Source: Bacillota bacterium (GTDB lineage Bacteria; Bacillota; Dethiobacteria; Dethiobacterales; Dethiobacteraceae). From it: a stretch of 40,085 nt of DNA. The notes beneath the pieces are model-generated. The model searched no databases. It saw only the letters and a list, made by a program, of their open reading frames with translations, and was not told where the DNA came from. Below, one piece after another: positions 2,126-10,288 of the stretch. Location of the stretch: NCBI GenBank assembly GCA_018725565.1, contig QLUR01000025.1, forward strand, positions 1 to 40,085, read 5' to 3'. The stretch's first letter is position 1, and every line of letters starts with the position of its first letter. The translations under genes were made by a program, and so were the position numbers.

Positions 2126-3091
2126 TTACTGTATTACATTGGCATCAAACAGGGCCACGCTGGGCAAAGAATCGTCATTAACATTTCTTACCCTGAGTGA
2201 CAAGGTGTAAACACCGGCGACCGGCGCCGTCCAGCTCCAGGATTCCCAGGCGCTCTGGCCGTAATTCCCGACAACGGCGACGGACTTTGCCCAGGGGGTA
2301 GCCAAGGGACCACCGCTGATAATAACGACCGCCGCATCATCGTTGAATGGGAGATAATCAACGGCATCAAACGCCGCCCTGCCGGCAAGCGTCTGCCCGG
2401 CGCTTAAAACAACGGCCTGACTTACTTCCGTGTATACGTCTTCTGCACCGGCGTGTAACACCGCGAAATGCCCACCTTCGGACGCAGTATAAATCGGGCC
2501 TCCACCACCATCTGCTTGATAGGTCGTGACAACTTGCGCCAATTCCGGGAAATTAACATTCCAGCCAGTGAAGTTGCCGGCTTCAAACCCGCCGTTTACC
2601 AGCGCGTTAAGCGGGTTATTGGCTGTCTGCACGGCATTGATGGTGAAGTTGACGGTGCCGACGTCACCCTGATAATCATTGCCCGCCGTAAGCGGCAGAT
2701 ATACAGTGAAGGCGACGGTGGCCAAACCGCCAGGAGCTAGAACAACGTTTGTGTGGTTTGCGGTTAAGGCAACCACCGCTGGAGTATTACCGGGAGCGAC
2801 ACCTTGAACCGCAAACAGGGGTCCAGCCGTCGCGGCCGATACACTATAGCGCAGCTCCAGCGTGCCGGCGTTTCTGACGGTAAAACTGCCGTTGTAGGTG
2901 TCGCCAGGCGCCATATTATAAACATGCACAGGAACCGTCGGGTCGTCACCTACTTCAATGTCCACCGTGCCGGCGGTGAAGGCGTTGCCGGCATTGGTTA
3001 CCGAGTCGGTAAAGAGGGCCATGGTGGCGCCGCCGACCAGCGCGGCAAGCAGAATCAATACGCTCATGCCTGCAAGTAGTTTTTTCTGCAT
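2126..3091 (-). CDS. TasA/camelysin-like protein fused to a C-terminal jelly-roll-type domain
   Basis: 321 residues in two parts. Residues 1-160 are a SipW-type signal (ALVGGATMALFTDS) plus a TasA/CalY domain sharing NMAPGDTYNGSFTVRNAGTL and YQGDVGTVNFTINAVQ with the paralogue downstream. Residues 161-321 begin NALVNGGFEAGNFTGWNV, the usual opening of CBM_4_9-like beta-sandwich modules, and end LSLRVRNVNDDSLPSVALFDANV, consistent with a carbohydrate- or ligand-binding jelly roll. The start is fixed by AAAGGAGG eight bases before ATG. The fusion suggests a matrix subunit bearing an adhesive or glycan-binding module. The architecture is read from sequence; binding is inferred. Confidence 0.82.
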   Translation of the reverse strand: MQKKLLAGMSVLILLAALVGGATMALFTDSVTNAGNAFTAGTVDIEVGDDPTVPVHVYNMAPGDTYNGSFTVRNAGTLELRYSVSAATAGPLFAVQGVAPGNTPAVVALTANHTNVVLAPGGLATVAFTVYLPLTAGNDYQGDVGTVNFTINAVQTANNPLNALVNGGFEAGNFTGWNVNFPELAQVVTTYQADGGGGPIYTASEGGHFAVLHAGAEDVYTEVSQAVVLSAGQTLAGRAAFDAVDYLPFNDDAAVVIISGGPLATPWAKSVAVVGNYGQSAWESWSWTAPVAGVYTLSLRVRNVNDDSLPSVALFDANVIQ

Positions 3092-3168: not shown

Positions 3169-3783
3169 CTAGCCTCCCCCCTTCAACTGCTTTTCTCTTT
3201 CCAAAACCTGCGCGTAGCGGAAAAGCTTGCGCAGCTCAGAAGCGATAATCAGCAGCGCCGGAAGAATGACCAGCAGCAATATTCCCCTTTCGGTCCTGAC
3301 AAAGCTGAACAGGTAGCCGAAATACGGCACACTGTGCTGCACGCGGCCGATCAGGTTGCCGCCCGGCAGCGGCAGCGGGTCGTCGGCATCGTTGGCGTCG
3401 CCGCGGGTGATGAAGCTTGGCGGCTCAGTCGGCAAGACCTGCATGACCCGGTGCGTGACAATGGTCTCCGCCTTCTCAGGGTCCGGGTCGCGGTAAGTGA
3501 TAATGTCGCCGGCCCGCACTTCCATCGGCTCAAGCGGCCGTACCAGCACGATGCTGCCGAGCTCAAAAGTTGGGCTCATGCTGCCGCCCTCGACAATGTA
3601 GAGCTGGTACCCGGCCACGGCGGGGGTGCCGCCGGTGAAGCGGCTCTGCAGGAGGAAAAAGACCAGCGCCGCCATCAGCAGCAGTACGCAGGCGAAAACC
3701 AGGTTTCCGGCGAGGCGGAGGATTTTGCGGGCCATGGAGTGCGCCGCTGGTTGTTTAGCTGCTGCTGTCTGTGCTGTTTCCAT
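3169..3783 (-). CDS. sipW: SipW-type (ER/archaeal-type) signal peptidase I
   Basis: 204 residues from ATG 3783, which has GGGGGAGG eight bases upstream; an in-frame ATG at 3804 lacks such a site. One membrane segment lies at about residues 25-47 and a second near the C terminus (GILLLVILPALLIIAS). The catalytic serine is in GGSMSPTF. The usual bacterial lysine is replaced by histidine in ETIVTHRV, and FITRGDANDADDP forms box E with the acidic residues, so this is the Ser-His ER-type peptidase. Family members process TasA-like precursors, and four candidate substrates surround it. The first 10 codons overlap the 3' end of the gene upstream, implying translational coupling. Confidence 0.9.
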   Translation of the reverse strand: METAQTAAAKQPAAHSMARKILRLAGNLVFACVLLLMAALVFFLLQSRFTGGTPAVAGYQLYIVEGGSMSPTFELGSIVLVRPLEPMEVRAGDIITYRDPDPEKAETIVTHRVMQVLPTEPPSFITRGDANDADDPLPLPGGNLIGRVQHSVPYFGYLFSFVRTERGILLLVILPALLIIASELRKLFRYAQVLEREKQLKGGG

Positions 3784-4843
3784 CACTGCTGCCTCCCCCG
3801 TCATTGACTCCGGCGCTTCCCGGTTCCCCGCCGTCAGGCCCGTTGCTCAGTTGACCTGCGCTTTCACTGCCGTCATCGCTTTGGTCCATATCCTTATTAA
3901 TACTTTCAGAATCACCAGTTTTGCCGTCAGCGCCGTCGCTCTTATTGCTCTGCCCCTGCCCGGCATTTTCATTATCGTTGCCCTTATTTTCTTCATCTTT
4001 GCTATCTTTTTCTTTGTCAACCGGGACCGCCGGCTGGCCGCCGTGGTCAGCGCCGGTTTGTTCGTCCGTGGAAACTGCGTCGTCTGTTAGCTGTTGCTCC
4101 GTTTTATCAGCCTTGTTGCCGTCGCCGTCGGGTTTGTCAGTTATCTTCTCCTTTGGGCTTTTCATCTTTAATTTTTCTTCGGGGTTTTCATACACCGTTC
4201 CATAAACTGTATCGCTTACCGTGCTTTCTTGGCTTTTCTTTTTGTTGACAGGCGGTGCGGCCAGGCCCAGCCGGGCGGGGATTTCCGCGATAATAAAGCA
4301 GTTTAGCGCTGTAAGGTACAGCATGCCCTGGTATTCGCCGGGCTGGGCGTCCGGGCCGGTGTCCAGCTTAAAGTCCAGGACAGCCTGCCTGCCCGGCGCT
4401 AAGCTTACAGGACCTGCCTGCTTAAAGAACGGCGCCAGGACCCCGCAGAAATGCCAATCCAGGGTAAGCAGGCGGTCGCCGATATTGCTGACGACCAAAA
4501 CCGAAGGGAAGTTTCTGTTGTTGCCGGCGGGATAGGTGCCAAAATCCAGGTAAATCTGTCCGCCGACGGTTTGCGCCACATCGAAGGCCGGACCCGGGTT
4601 GCCCGGGCTGTTGTTCGTATTGCTGTTGCCGGGCGCCAGCGCCAGGTTGTCGGCAAAGGTGGTGGCGCGGAAAGTATGCGGTTCTGCTTCGGCGCGGTCG
4701 GTGAAGTAGGCGCGGGTGGCCGGGAGCAGCAGCGGAAAACAAAACAGGACTACGACTGATACCAGCCAGCCCGCTGCGCGGAGCTTACTTATGTACCCTT
4801 GCCGGCGCCTGTGGCGCTGCCGGCGCTGCTGCAACCTGTTCAT
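3755..4843 (-). CDS. SipW-type-leader surface protein with long acidic low-complexity tail
   Basis: 362 residues. A very basic start (RQRHRRRQG) precedes a hydrophobic segment and ATRAYFTDRAEAE, which resembles SipW-dependent leaders. Residues about 50-195 form a beta-rich domain with repeated statements such as FPSVLVVSNIGDRLLTLDWH and LAPGRQAVLDFKL, similar in layout to TasA-like or Ig-like fibre domains. From about residue 200 onward the chain is a hydrophilic tail rich in Asp, Glu, Lys, Ser, Gly and Asn with no predicted fold, ending in SSDGNSTDSSS. ATG 4843 has AAGGGAGGG upstream. It overlaps sipW by about 29 bases. It may act as a cell-wall-spanning anchor or assembly factor; that is inference. 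Confidence 0.7.
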   Translation of the reverse strand: MNRLQQRRQRHRRRQGYISKLRAAGWLVSVVVLFCFPLLLPATRAYFTDRAEAEPHTFRATTFADNLALAPGNSNTNNSPGNPGPAFDVAQTVGGQIYLDFGTYPAGNNRNFPSVLVVSNIGDRLLTLDWHFCGVLAPFFKQAGPVSLAPGRQAVLDFKLDTGPDAQPGEYQGMLYLTALNCFIIAEIPARLGLAAPPVNKKKSQESTVSDTVYGTVYENPEEKLKMKSPKEKITDKPDGDGNKADKTEQQLTDDAVSTDEQTGADHGGQPAVPVDKEKDSKDEENKGNDNENAGQGQSNKSDGADGKTGDSESINKDMDQSDDGSESAGQLSNGPDGGEPGSAGVNDGGGSSDGNSTDSSS

Positions 4844-4905: not shown

Positions 4906-5193
4906 TCACCCTGGCTGTCGTTGCCCAGGGATCGGGCTCTTGGTTTCAACTGTTCCACGCGGCTCTGTCTCCCAGGAGCGCGTTTCCTGCTTGTCCTCCG
5001 GGGCAGCTGTTTTCTCCAGCGCTTCGTCCATTAACCGGAGCATTTCCAGCATGCTCCGGAAGGAACAGGTTTTTTGGCCTTCCAGCCACTGGATAGTGCC
5101 CTGCCAGCAGTTGTCTTGCCGGAATTTTATCTGTATCAAAAACGACTGGCCCCTGGCGTGCCGTTTGTGGTTTGCTGCCTGGCTGTTCGCCAC
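4906..5193 (-). CDS. small conserved protein, first gene of the TasA/SipW cluster
   Basis: 95 residues from GTG 5193, which has AGGGGG seven bases upstream. A longer reading from 5301 has no such site and its extra residues look non-coding. The core, about residues 15-55, reads FLIQIKFRQDNCWQGTIQWLEGQ followed by KTCSFRSMLEMLRLMDEAL (broken here for length). This resembles a short domain seen in many small Firmicute proteins, with a beta hairpin containing W-QG-I-WLEG and a helix of FRS-LE-L-LMDEAL pattern. The tail is polar and proline-rich. No signal peptide is visible, so it is probably cytoplasmic. I know no function; its place at the head of the cluster hints at a regulatory or accessory role. 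Confidence 0.65.
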   Translation of the reverse strand: MANSQAANHKRHARGQSFLIQIKFRQDNCWQGTIQWLEGQKTCSFRSMLEMLRLMDEALEKTAAPEDKQETRSWETEPRGTVETKSPIPGQRQPG

Positions 5194-5319: not shown

Positions 5320-5347
5320 AACATAGCATAGCAGCGTGCGGTCTCAA
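5320..5347 (-). promoter_or_regulatory. candidate sigma-A promoter for the TasA/SipW cluster
   Basis: On the minus strand TTGAGA (5347-5342) is separated by 16 nt from TATGTT (5325-5320), which is preceded by TGC, an extended -10. It lies about 125 nt upstream of the first gene's GTG. The match is moderate and the assignment tentative. Confidence 0.4.
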
Positions 5348-5363
5348 ACCGGAAACATGTCAA

Positions 5364-5404
5364 TAATAAACAGATGACGGTCTGGTGACAGACTAATAAC
5401 AGAT
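5364..5404 (-). repeat. two direct repeats flanking a small inverted repeat upstream of the TasA/SipW cluster
   Basis: On the plus strand TAATAAACAGAT (5364-5375) recurs as TAATAACAGAT (5394-5404), start to start 30 bases apart. Between them GTCTG-GTGA-CAGAC (5380-5393) forms a 5-bp inverted repeat. The pair sits just upstream of the candidate promoter at 5320-5347. SARP-type regulators bind direct repeats next to the -35 box, and one is encoded next door, so these are possible binding sites (inference). Confidence 0.4.
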
Positions 5405-5474: not shown

Positions 5475-6689
5475 TCAGGACTGTCCGGAGGAGCTTAAGG
5501 GCTGCAGCCGGCTTTTCAGCAGCAGCTCCCGGTCTTTAAGGCCGGCGGCCAGGCGCTGCAGGATGCGCTGACCTTGCTCCGTGGTGGTGTTCGGTAACAG
5601 GGCCATAAACTGCTGCTGGCCAAAGCGGCAGAACACGTCGCTTTTACGCAGGGTGTCCTGCAAAACCTCCTGCAAGGCGGTCATGTAATTCTGCCTCTGT
5701 TTTGCCGTTTCGCCGCTGAAGTCGGCGGAGGTTACGGCTAAGAGGGCTAGCAGCCCCGACTGGTTGTTTCTATCCGCGCGGCGGATTTCCAGGTTGCAGA
5801 CGATATTAAAAAATTCCGGATCGCAAAGAAAAGCGCCGATAGCCTGCTGTCTGTCTTGCATGGTCTGCCTGAATGCGGAAAAATCAAGGACGTCGCCGCC
5901 GTCGCCGTTACGCTCCTGGATGATCCGGAGCATCCGTTTCATGGCCAGGGAGGGCTTCAAGGACATTTCCCGATAAAAGACAGCCGTGACATTCTCATAA
6001 TGCCATTTGGCTTGCGCTACTTTCCCTTCGCCCAGTAAGGCCTCCAGCAACAGCAGGTGCAGTTCTTCCTCAAAATAGTCAATCAGCAGCGCCCTGGTTA
6101 TTTCCTCCACAATTTCTGCATGAGCCTGTGTTTCTTTAAGCACCAGGGCCAGGTCGACAACACTTTGCAGATACAAGCGGCGGTAGTGGCTTCTGAGGGG
6201 TATCAACCAGTCGCTGTAAGCGCATTCTGGCAGCAAGTCGCCTTTATACAGCGCAAGCCCCTGCCTGTACAGGGTCACCGCTTCCTGCGCCAACCCCTGT
6301 TTTGCGGCCTTGCGGGCCTGGCGGCAGCTGGCTTCGAATTCGGTTATATCAAGCCATAAATCCTGGTGGCGGTTGAAAGTATACCCGCCCTGGTTAAATT
6401 TTATTAAATCCACTCCGCCGCCCAGCAGGCTGCGCAGACGGTAGATCAGGGTACGGACGGCGCTTTTGGGGTCTTCATAGGGCTGCTCCGGCCACAACTG
6501 CTCCGCGATAACCTCCGGGAGCAGGATACGGTCGTGGTTAACCAGCAAATATTTGAATAACTCCCATACTTTCCGCGAGCGGCCGTGTGATTCGCAGAGG
6601 TAGGTGTCGCCGTTTATTACCACAAAATGGCCTAAAGTAAAGACTTTGAGCTGCTTCGCTGCATCCGCAGAGAAAAACTTGGCCTCCAT
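5475..6689 (-). CDS. SARP/BTAD-type transcriptional regulator with degenerate GGDEF domain
   Basis: 404 residues from ATG 6689, set by GGAGGAG five bases upstream; the open frame continues upstream but crosses the promoter at 6770-6798. Residues about 10-105 are an OmpR-type winged helix (FTLGHFVVINGDTYL ... SAVRTLIYRLRSLLG). Residues about 115-265 are a bacterial transcriptional activation domain made of TPR-like helices (ALYKGDLLPECAYSDWLIPLR). The C-terminal portion, about 275-390, has GGDEF-family layout (LRKSDVFCRFGQQQFMALLP then NTTTEQGQRILQRL), but the catalytic GGDEF motif is replaced by GQQQF. It is therefore unlikely to be an active diguanylate cyclase and may bind a nucleotide as a sensor. 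It probably regulates the adjacent surface-protein cluster or another target; no direct evidence is visible. Confidence 0.82.
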   Translation of the reverse strand: MEAKFFSADAAKQLKVFTLGHFVVINGDTYLCESHGRSRKVWELFKYLLVNHDRILLPEVIAEQLWPEQPYEDPKSAVRTLIYRLRSLLGGGVDLIKFNQGGYTFNRHQDLWLDITEFEASCRQARKAAKQGLAQEAVTLYRQGLALYKGDLLPECAYSDWLIPLRSHYRRLYLQSVVDLALVLKETQAHAEIVEEITRALLIDYFEEELHLLLLEALLGEGKVAQAKWHYENVTAVFYREMSLKPSLAMKRMLRIIQERNGDGGDVLDFSAFRQTMQDRQQAIGAFLCDPEFFNIVCNLEIRRADRNNQSGLLALLAVTSADFSGETAKQRQNYMTALQEVLQDTLRKSDVFCRFGQQQFMALLPNTTTEQGQRILQRLAAGLKDRELLLKSRLQPLSSSGQS

Positions 6690-6798: not shown

Positions 6799-6970
6799 AA
6801 CATTCTTGAAGCCCGGTGGTTGACAGAAAAAAGTCGAGCCACCGACAGCAGGTGCTCAAGCAGATGCCAGGTTGTCAGGGCTGTTTTTGGCGTCACCCGG
6901 GAGATTGCTTTGACGAAAGCATATGCGATTGGGCGCAGGGCGGTCTTTCGTGACCGAGGTGAAGAGAAGC

Positions 6971-10167: not shown

Positions 10168-10176
10168 GGCTGCTCT

Positions 10177-10277
10177 TCTTATCTTTCAGGATTTCCCTGA
10201 AGGAATTGGCACCTTCCAGCATTAAGCTGGGGTTGCCGGGCTTCATCGGGCCTTTCCCTCCGCCTCTCTAGATAAGA
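10177..10277 (-). promoter_or_regulatory. SAM-I (S-box) riboswitch
   Basis: Read from 10277 on the minus strand, the aptamer shows every S-box hallmark. Helix P1 is TCTTATC, followed by AGAG-GGCGGAGGGA, GGCCCGATGAAGCCCGGCAACC, a variable hairpin, GGTGCCAATTCC, a helix P4 and the closing GATAAGA. It lies about 80 nt upstream of metY, with a terminator between, so SAM binding should reduce metY-metX transcription. The call rests on the invariant core and is firm. Confidence 0.95.
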
Positions 10278-10288
10278 CTTTTTAAACC

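Follow-up and report, generated by a model that had tools for sequence, protein, structure and literature searches.

The window, a stretch of 40,085 nucleotides from a Bacillota bacterium (contig QLUR01000025.1), contains a regulator gene of the SARP type at positions 5475–6689. The gene begins with an ATG at 6689 that has a GGAGG upstream, ends with a TGA at 5475, and encodes a protein of 404 amino acids. A preliminary description made from the letters alone had given the same coordinates, and they are correct; the strand is minus. A longer reading from a GTG at 6896 is ruled out, as relatives start near 6689 and a good ribosome site lies there. The protein contains an OmpR-type winged helix (residues 38–97; 6399–6578, minus strand), which matches the Pfam family Trans_reg_C (PF00486, 27.8 bits) and the AfsR and EmbR structures, a TPR-like BTAD domain (residues 113–255; 5925–6353, minus strand; PF03704, 67.5 bits), and a degenerate GGDEF-fold domain (residues 283–404; 5478–5843, minus strand). 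Both of the first two matches are above their Pfam cut-offs, satisfying the SARP criterion of a winged helix followed by a BTAD, and full-length relatives share the make-up. The Pfam domains confirm the earlier proposal of a regulator that fuses a SARP/BTAD activator to a degenerate GGDEF domain, and the motifs quoted in its support, DVFCRFG, GQQQF and MALLPNTTTEQG, are present in the sequence.

Past a predicted operator, the genes on the same strand follow in the order small protein, acidic secreted protein, SipW-like peptidase, TasA-like protein, c-di-GMP-I aptamer and two further TasA-like proteins. The small conserved protein (4906–5193, minus strand, likely GTG start) opens the predicted target operon. 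It has no Pfam family and no confident structural match, and its AlphaFold2 model has a β-β-β-α core with invariant F, G, F and E. In most loci, small proteins of 70–95 residues, often as a related tandem pair, separate the regulator from SipW (pairs at L081 11377–11879, L082 7057–7537 and others). The secreted protein (3755–4843, minus strand) has a weak SipW-type signal and a long acidic low-complexity C-terminus, with relatives in L042–L045 and L137. It is followed on the minus strand by the SipW-like signal peptidase I (3169–3804; TIGR02228, 116.7 bits, above cut-off) and by three TasA/camelysin-like proteins, at 2126–3091 (with a SipW-type signal peptide; PF12389 60.1 bits, TIGR04088 25.5 bits), at 1432–1902 after the riboswitch (63.6 and 26 bits), and at 693–1355 (32.1 and 20.3 bits). 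The criterion for SipW/TasA secretion is met, with TIGR02228 over its cut-off and TIGR04088 over its cut-off in three neighbours; the TasA-like proteins of the window score below the cut-off of the full-length TasA equivalog. In Bacillus, the tapA–sipW–tasA matrix operon is under SinR control. The window likewise places a SipW-like peptidase beside TasA/camelysin-like proteins, but here a SARP–GGDEF regulator, a SARP-type operator and a c-di-GMP riboswitch accompany the genes instead.

This neighbourhood is conserved, as the preliminary description had required of its proposal. Among 50 loci of the family, a homologue of the small protein adjoins the regulator in 32, making it the most constant neighbour, SipW is present in 20 and a TasA-like gene in 18, and at least one of these three in 39, although many of the loci end at contig ends. 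None of the surface genes is nearby in 11 of the 50 loci, including that of a paralogue in the same genome (L041). In two loci the TasA-like cluster is closely followed by a selenocysteine tRNA gene (L043 6487–6579, plus strand; L044 6155–6247, minus strand). Elsewhere in the window, an ordinary SAM riboswitch (10176–10278, minus strand, 97.9 bits) precedes the genes for O-acetylhomoserine sulfhydrylase and homoserine acetyltransferase.

The c-di-GMP-I aptamer lies within the gene run at 1971–2052 on the minus strand (RF01051, 60.1 bits versus a gathering threshold of 35), ahead of the second TasA-like gene and on its strand. It had been described as two genes from the regulator; in fact four genes intervene, namely those for the small protein, the 3755–4843 protein, the SipW-like peptidase and a TasA-like protein. 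The suggested association is nonetheless real, since 40 loci of the class contain 21 c-di-GMP-I class aptamers against 1.3 expected from the genomes' own densities. The aptamers at regulator loci are of the c-di-GMP-I, c-di-GMP-I-GGC and c-di-GMP-II types. At the level of whole genomes the correlation is only weakly informative: at least one c-di-GMP riboswitch occurs in 42 of 43 genomes with the regulator and 31 of 34 without it (means 5.0 and 3.1). Because such riboswitches are nearly universal in the class, their position carries information and their presence does not. We also considered a riboswitch in the regulator's own leader and rejected it, as aptamers do lie upstream in L074 and L051 but other reading frames stand between (a VanZ-like one in L074). 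Two loci have a tandem pair of c-di-GMP-I aptamers before one gene (L063 7828–8126, plus strand; L069 4046–4317, minus strand).

An AlphaFold2 model of the regulator was built with 15 sequences (mean pLDDT 84) and compared with PDB structures by Foldseek and VIA-align. The best structural match of the modelled winged helix and BTAD part is AfsR, on which residues 12–263 superpose with a Z of 20.1 over 244 residues (8k60); the profile likeness to the AfsR/SARP proteins of Streptomyces (8hvr, 8k60) reaches E 8e-14. The two differ at the C-terminus, where AfsR has a NOD–TPR sensor and the regulator a degenerate GGDEF domain, and in their targets, which are antibiotic clusters for SARPs and predicted surface-fibre operons in Bacillota here. 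EmbR of Mycobacterium tuberculosis (2fez/2ff4; Z 19) has the same order of winged helix, BTAD and C-terminal sensing domain, but its C-terminus is an FHA phosphopeptide domain and that of the regulator has the GGDEF fold.

Residues 288–402 of the model superpose on GGDEF domains of the PDB at Z 12–14, and on PleD with c-di-GMP (2wb4) at a Z of 12.8 and an rmsd of 2.2 over 113 residues. They align to PleD 297–424, and because the alignment ends at 424, the last helix of the fold is missing in the regulator. The chain ends before this helix in the whole family; a frameshift as the origin of the short C-terminus is ruled out, as the relatives stop at the same place. Searched by itself, a profile of the family C-terminal domain retrieves 28 GGDEF sequences of solved structure with E values of at most 0.01, reaching E 8e-10. 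Pfam matches residues 337–392 to PF00990 at 31.0 bits, above the cut-off of 23.8, and 30 of 36 relatives match this family singly. The likeness to GGDEF domains is beyond chance, and the fold foreseen in the preliminary description passes on both structural and HMM grounds.

At the position of the catalytic GG(D/E)EF motif the regulator reads GQQQF (residues 357–361; 5607–5621, minus strand). The motif occurs in 0 of 43 relatives, the commonest form being N-x-x-Q-F, and Q360 is nearly invariant. Positions 318, 320 and 323 are A/T, T/A and D/E, where true GGDEFs have D, D/N and K; the family has lost the metal-binding aspartates as well as the DxDxFK lysine. The regulator meets one criterion of a diguanylate cyclase, the GGDEF fold, and fails the catalytic motif, the metal-binding aspartate and DxDxFK. 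The domain had been called a dead cyclase from its GQQQF, and the relatives bear this out.

The residues of the inhibitory site (I-site), for which a check had been proposed, are retained. The primary motif RxxD is RKSD in the regulator (residues 348–351; 5637–5648, minus strand) and is invariant in 36 of 36 and 43 of 43 relatives in the two sets compared. R348 and D351 correspond to R359 and D362 of PleD and to R206 and D209 of DgcR. R379 (5553–5555, minus strand; 36/36) is at the position of PleD R390 and DgcR R237, the third primary I-site residue. R304-x-x-R307 (5769–5780, minus strand) provides the secondary arginine positions by family conservation and alignments: R304 coincides with PleD R313 by structural ranges (33 R and 2 K in the family), and R307 aligns with DgcR R163. 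In PleD, R359, D362 and R390 of one molecule make up the I-site together with R313 of a second (PMC7288161); in DgcR it consists of R206 and D209 plus R163 of the partner (PMC8041772). Seven residues of the C-terminal domain are invariant (F294, E301, R307, L347, R348, D351 and R379), and four of them, R307, R348, D351 and R379, are I-site positions.

RxxD by itself is weak evidence, because it is also present in 26 of 26 true GGDEFs from nine genomes of the class, and we reject it as sole proof of sensing; the argument rests on R307 and R379. R307 is present in 35 of 35 family members versus 7 of 16 true GGDEFs of the class (Fisher 4e-6), and R379 in 36 of 36 versus 9 of 16 (Fisher 9e-5). These values are indicative only, because related sequences are not independent. 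As judged from its residues, the C-terminal domain is a dead diguanylate cyclase that lacks the catalytic site and retains the I-site residues for c-di-GMP; there are no binding data. The PopA-type criterion of a kept RxxD (43/43) and a lost catalytic motif (0/43) is satisfied. PopA of Caulobacter, which like other degenerate-GGDEF effectors of c-di-GMP has lost the catalytic site and kept RxxD, binds c-di-GMP at about 2 µM (PMC12564702); it is a REC–GGDEF adaptor in protein degradation, whereas the regulator is a DNA-binding activator. DgcR and PleD share the fold and the I-site residues (RxxD and the R390/R237 and R163/R313 positions) but are catalytically active and carry a GG(D/E)EF motif and metal-binding aspartates, none of which the regulator has.

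In 40 loci read past the regulator stop codon, we found 6–7-mers at 11-bp steps ahead of a −10 element. The units are TGTAAC, TATAAC, TGAAAC and TGTGAC in two to about seven copies; L052 has six copies of TGAAAC/TGTAAC. The longest of the kind seen is in L142, where (A/T)ATAAC-like units recur every 11 bp for about seven steps, counted by eye, downstream of 7153 (minus strand) before the small-protein gene. In the window, 5357–5325 reads TGTTTCC-GGTT-TGAGACC-N9-TATGCT, an arrangement kept in L043 and L044. The predicted SARP operator is the 11-bp direct repeat TGTTTCC-N4-TGAGACC (5340–5357, minus strand), whose two units agree at 4 of 7 positions, and the predicted −10 element TATGCT (5325–5330, minus strand) begins 9 bp past the second 7-mer. 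Repeats seen by eye farther upstream, at 5403–5375 (TCTGTTATTAG TCTGTCACCAG ACCGTCA), do not fit the −10 distance of the family and were replaced by those at 5357–5340.

A first scan for repeats, over spacings of 8 to 24, found 11 bp in 19 of 43 loci and each of the other spacings in 0–3. In a second scan, 11 bp was found in 24 of 55 loci, the window included, and other spacings in 0–1; 23 loci have a common single distance to the −10 element, the reverse strand gave 0, and shuffles averaged 0.24. Because the unit expression of the second scan was composed after viewing the downstream DNA of the loci, the absolute count is no fair test of it; the proper comparison is with other spacings, other distances and the reverse strand. 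SARP operators are direct repeats at 11 or 22 bp with the 3′ repeat 8 bp from the −10 element (PMC10936776). The predicted operators of the family resemble those of AfsR/SARP in both the 11-bp direct repeats and the 3′ repeat near −10, and in silico the SARP promoter layout of 11-bp repeats at a fixed −10 distance is met in the 24 loci. There is strong support, at the level of sequence, for the adjacent surface-fibre operon as the target of the regulator.

Searched genome-wide, the pattern TAAC-N7-TAAC-N10-TATAAT has 13 matches in 22 genomes and 0 in the reversed control. Eight of the 13 are directly behind a regulator gene and 3 precede secreted surface proteins. We discounted the match in L107, which is before a phosphate-binding protein gene and resembles a Pho box, and that in L097, which is inside a gene. 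The pattern in L099, L102 and L105 stands before large secreted proteins remote from the regulator, which suggests a putative wider surface regulon.

Full-length relatives of the regulator, at 35–78% identity, are present in about half of the 99 relatives searched, so the fusion is an old family and not an accident of one assembly. The named carriers, from Dethiobacter, Syntrophomonadaceae, Gracilibacter, Alkaliphilus and Anoxynatronum records, are all Bacillota. The C-terminal domain was found in 13 of 199 sampled genomes of the phylum, 9 of the 13 outside the class, and it stays full length across classes at about 30–45% identity. The module occurs in other classes both with aptamers (L142, L144) and without a detected one (L137). 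The genome of the window (2.67 Mb, 112 contigs) has ten further GGDEF matches and one paralogue of the regulator on contig C40, 70% identical. This paralogue (L041 5456–6664, plus strand) keeps RxxD as LRGSD and is flanked, without surface genes, by a LuxR-type membrane protein and by a solute symporter with phenylacetate-CoA-ligase-like genes. In two loci the full regulator has a neighbour that shares its degenerate GGDEF domain (L054 1705–2865, minus strand; L058 12543–13769, plus strand); the one in L054, as read, has an N-terminal response-regulator receiver and no BTAD.

We consider it probable, in the absence of binding data, that the regulator works as a SARP activator on the surface-fibre operon beside it and is gated by c-di-GMP at the I-site of its dead GGDEF domain. 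The winged helix and BTAD would bind the direct repeats of 11-bp period, which overlap the −35 region of the promoter that follows, a step with strong sequence support, and the bound regulator would recruit RNA polymerase as AfsR does, although the polymerase contact is inferred. The operon switched on in this way would comprise the small protein, the 3755–4843 protein, SipW and the TasA-like subunits. Binding of c-di-GMP by the dead domain, and its effect on dimers and on transcription, are inferences: c-di-GMP, probably as a dimer, may bridge R348, D351 and R379 of one GGDEF-like domain and R304 and R307 of another, and the bridging may rearrange two protomers and alter DNA binding or polymerase contact, with a sign that is undetermined. 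The c-di-GMP-I riboswitch in the gene run, present by sequence and inferred in function, could add a second, RNA-level response, also of undetermined sign, before what would be the major subunits of a fibre whose formation is itself inferred. With a c-di-GMP regulator and a c-di-GMP riboswitch on the same surface-fibre genes, one signal may act twice.

The chief rival, which we think unlikely but keep in view, is that the dead domain binds no nucleotide and serves only in dimerisation or docking, the regulator still activating the surface operon. The I-site patch would then be a contact surface for the BTAD, for a true cyclase or for some partner protein, possibly the small neighbour. In the GGDEF protein MsLadC, the RxxD patch lines a protein–protein interface (PMC11577456); patches of this kind can form such interfaces, and conservation of the I-site in the regulator family could reflect docking. 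The lost catalytic pocket and missing last helix are in keeping with this, as is a most constant neighbour without known function. Docking leaves unexplained, however, why four ligand-contact positions are fixed, including arginines that vary in active enzymes, and why c-di-GMP riboswitches occur at the same loci.

That the domain binds another nucleotide, such as c-di-AMP, cGAMP, GTP or (p)ppGpp, is improbable. Its pocket has diverged from the enzymes, and PleD has been solved with (p)ppGpp as well as c-di-GMP (9g85, 9g86), but the positions it retains make contact with dimeric c-di-GMP in PleD and DgcR (PMC7288161, PMC8041772), and all three aptamer types at the loci are for c-di-GMP. We give almost no credence to a functionless remnant that stabilises the chain with I-site residues conserved for folding; the lost motif, the shortened C-terminus and an RxxD common to all GGDEFs of the class would allow it, but the domain persists at full length across classes, Q360 hardly varies in it, and its I-site arginines are better conserved than those of the enzymes.

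Both halves of the regulator, the SARP part and the degenerate GGDEF part, are of known kinds. No BTAD–GGDEF fusion is described in the literature searched, whose scope left out most subscription papers; a search for SARPs with c-di-GMP found nothing relevant, and a 2025 review of c-di-GMP effectors mentions no SARP, BTAD or AfsR. The 11-bp repeat operator in the promoter next to the regulator is new in this analysis. We incline, with some reserve, to the view that these proteins form a widespread and undescribed class of c-di-GMP-responsive SARP activators with a GGDEF-derived receptor, which together with riboswitches in the same transcripts would give surface-fibre and adhesin genes of Bacillota a two-layer response, at promoter and RNA. 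DNA-binding receptors of c-di-GMP are few, and outside Actinobacteria most descriptions of them concern Proteobacteria. A recognisable operator makes regulons predictable from sequence. If binding is confirmed, a transcription factor would have taken over a cyclase domain for its sensor, a c-di-GMP output would become readable in many Bacillota, cultivated and uncultivated alike, and the pairing of receptor protein and riboswitch on one operon could be put to a direct test.
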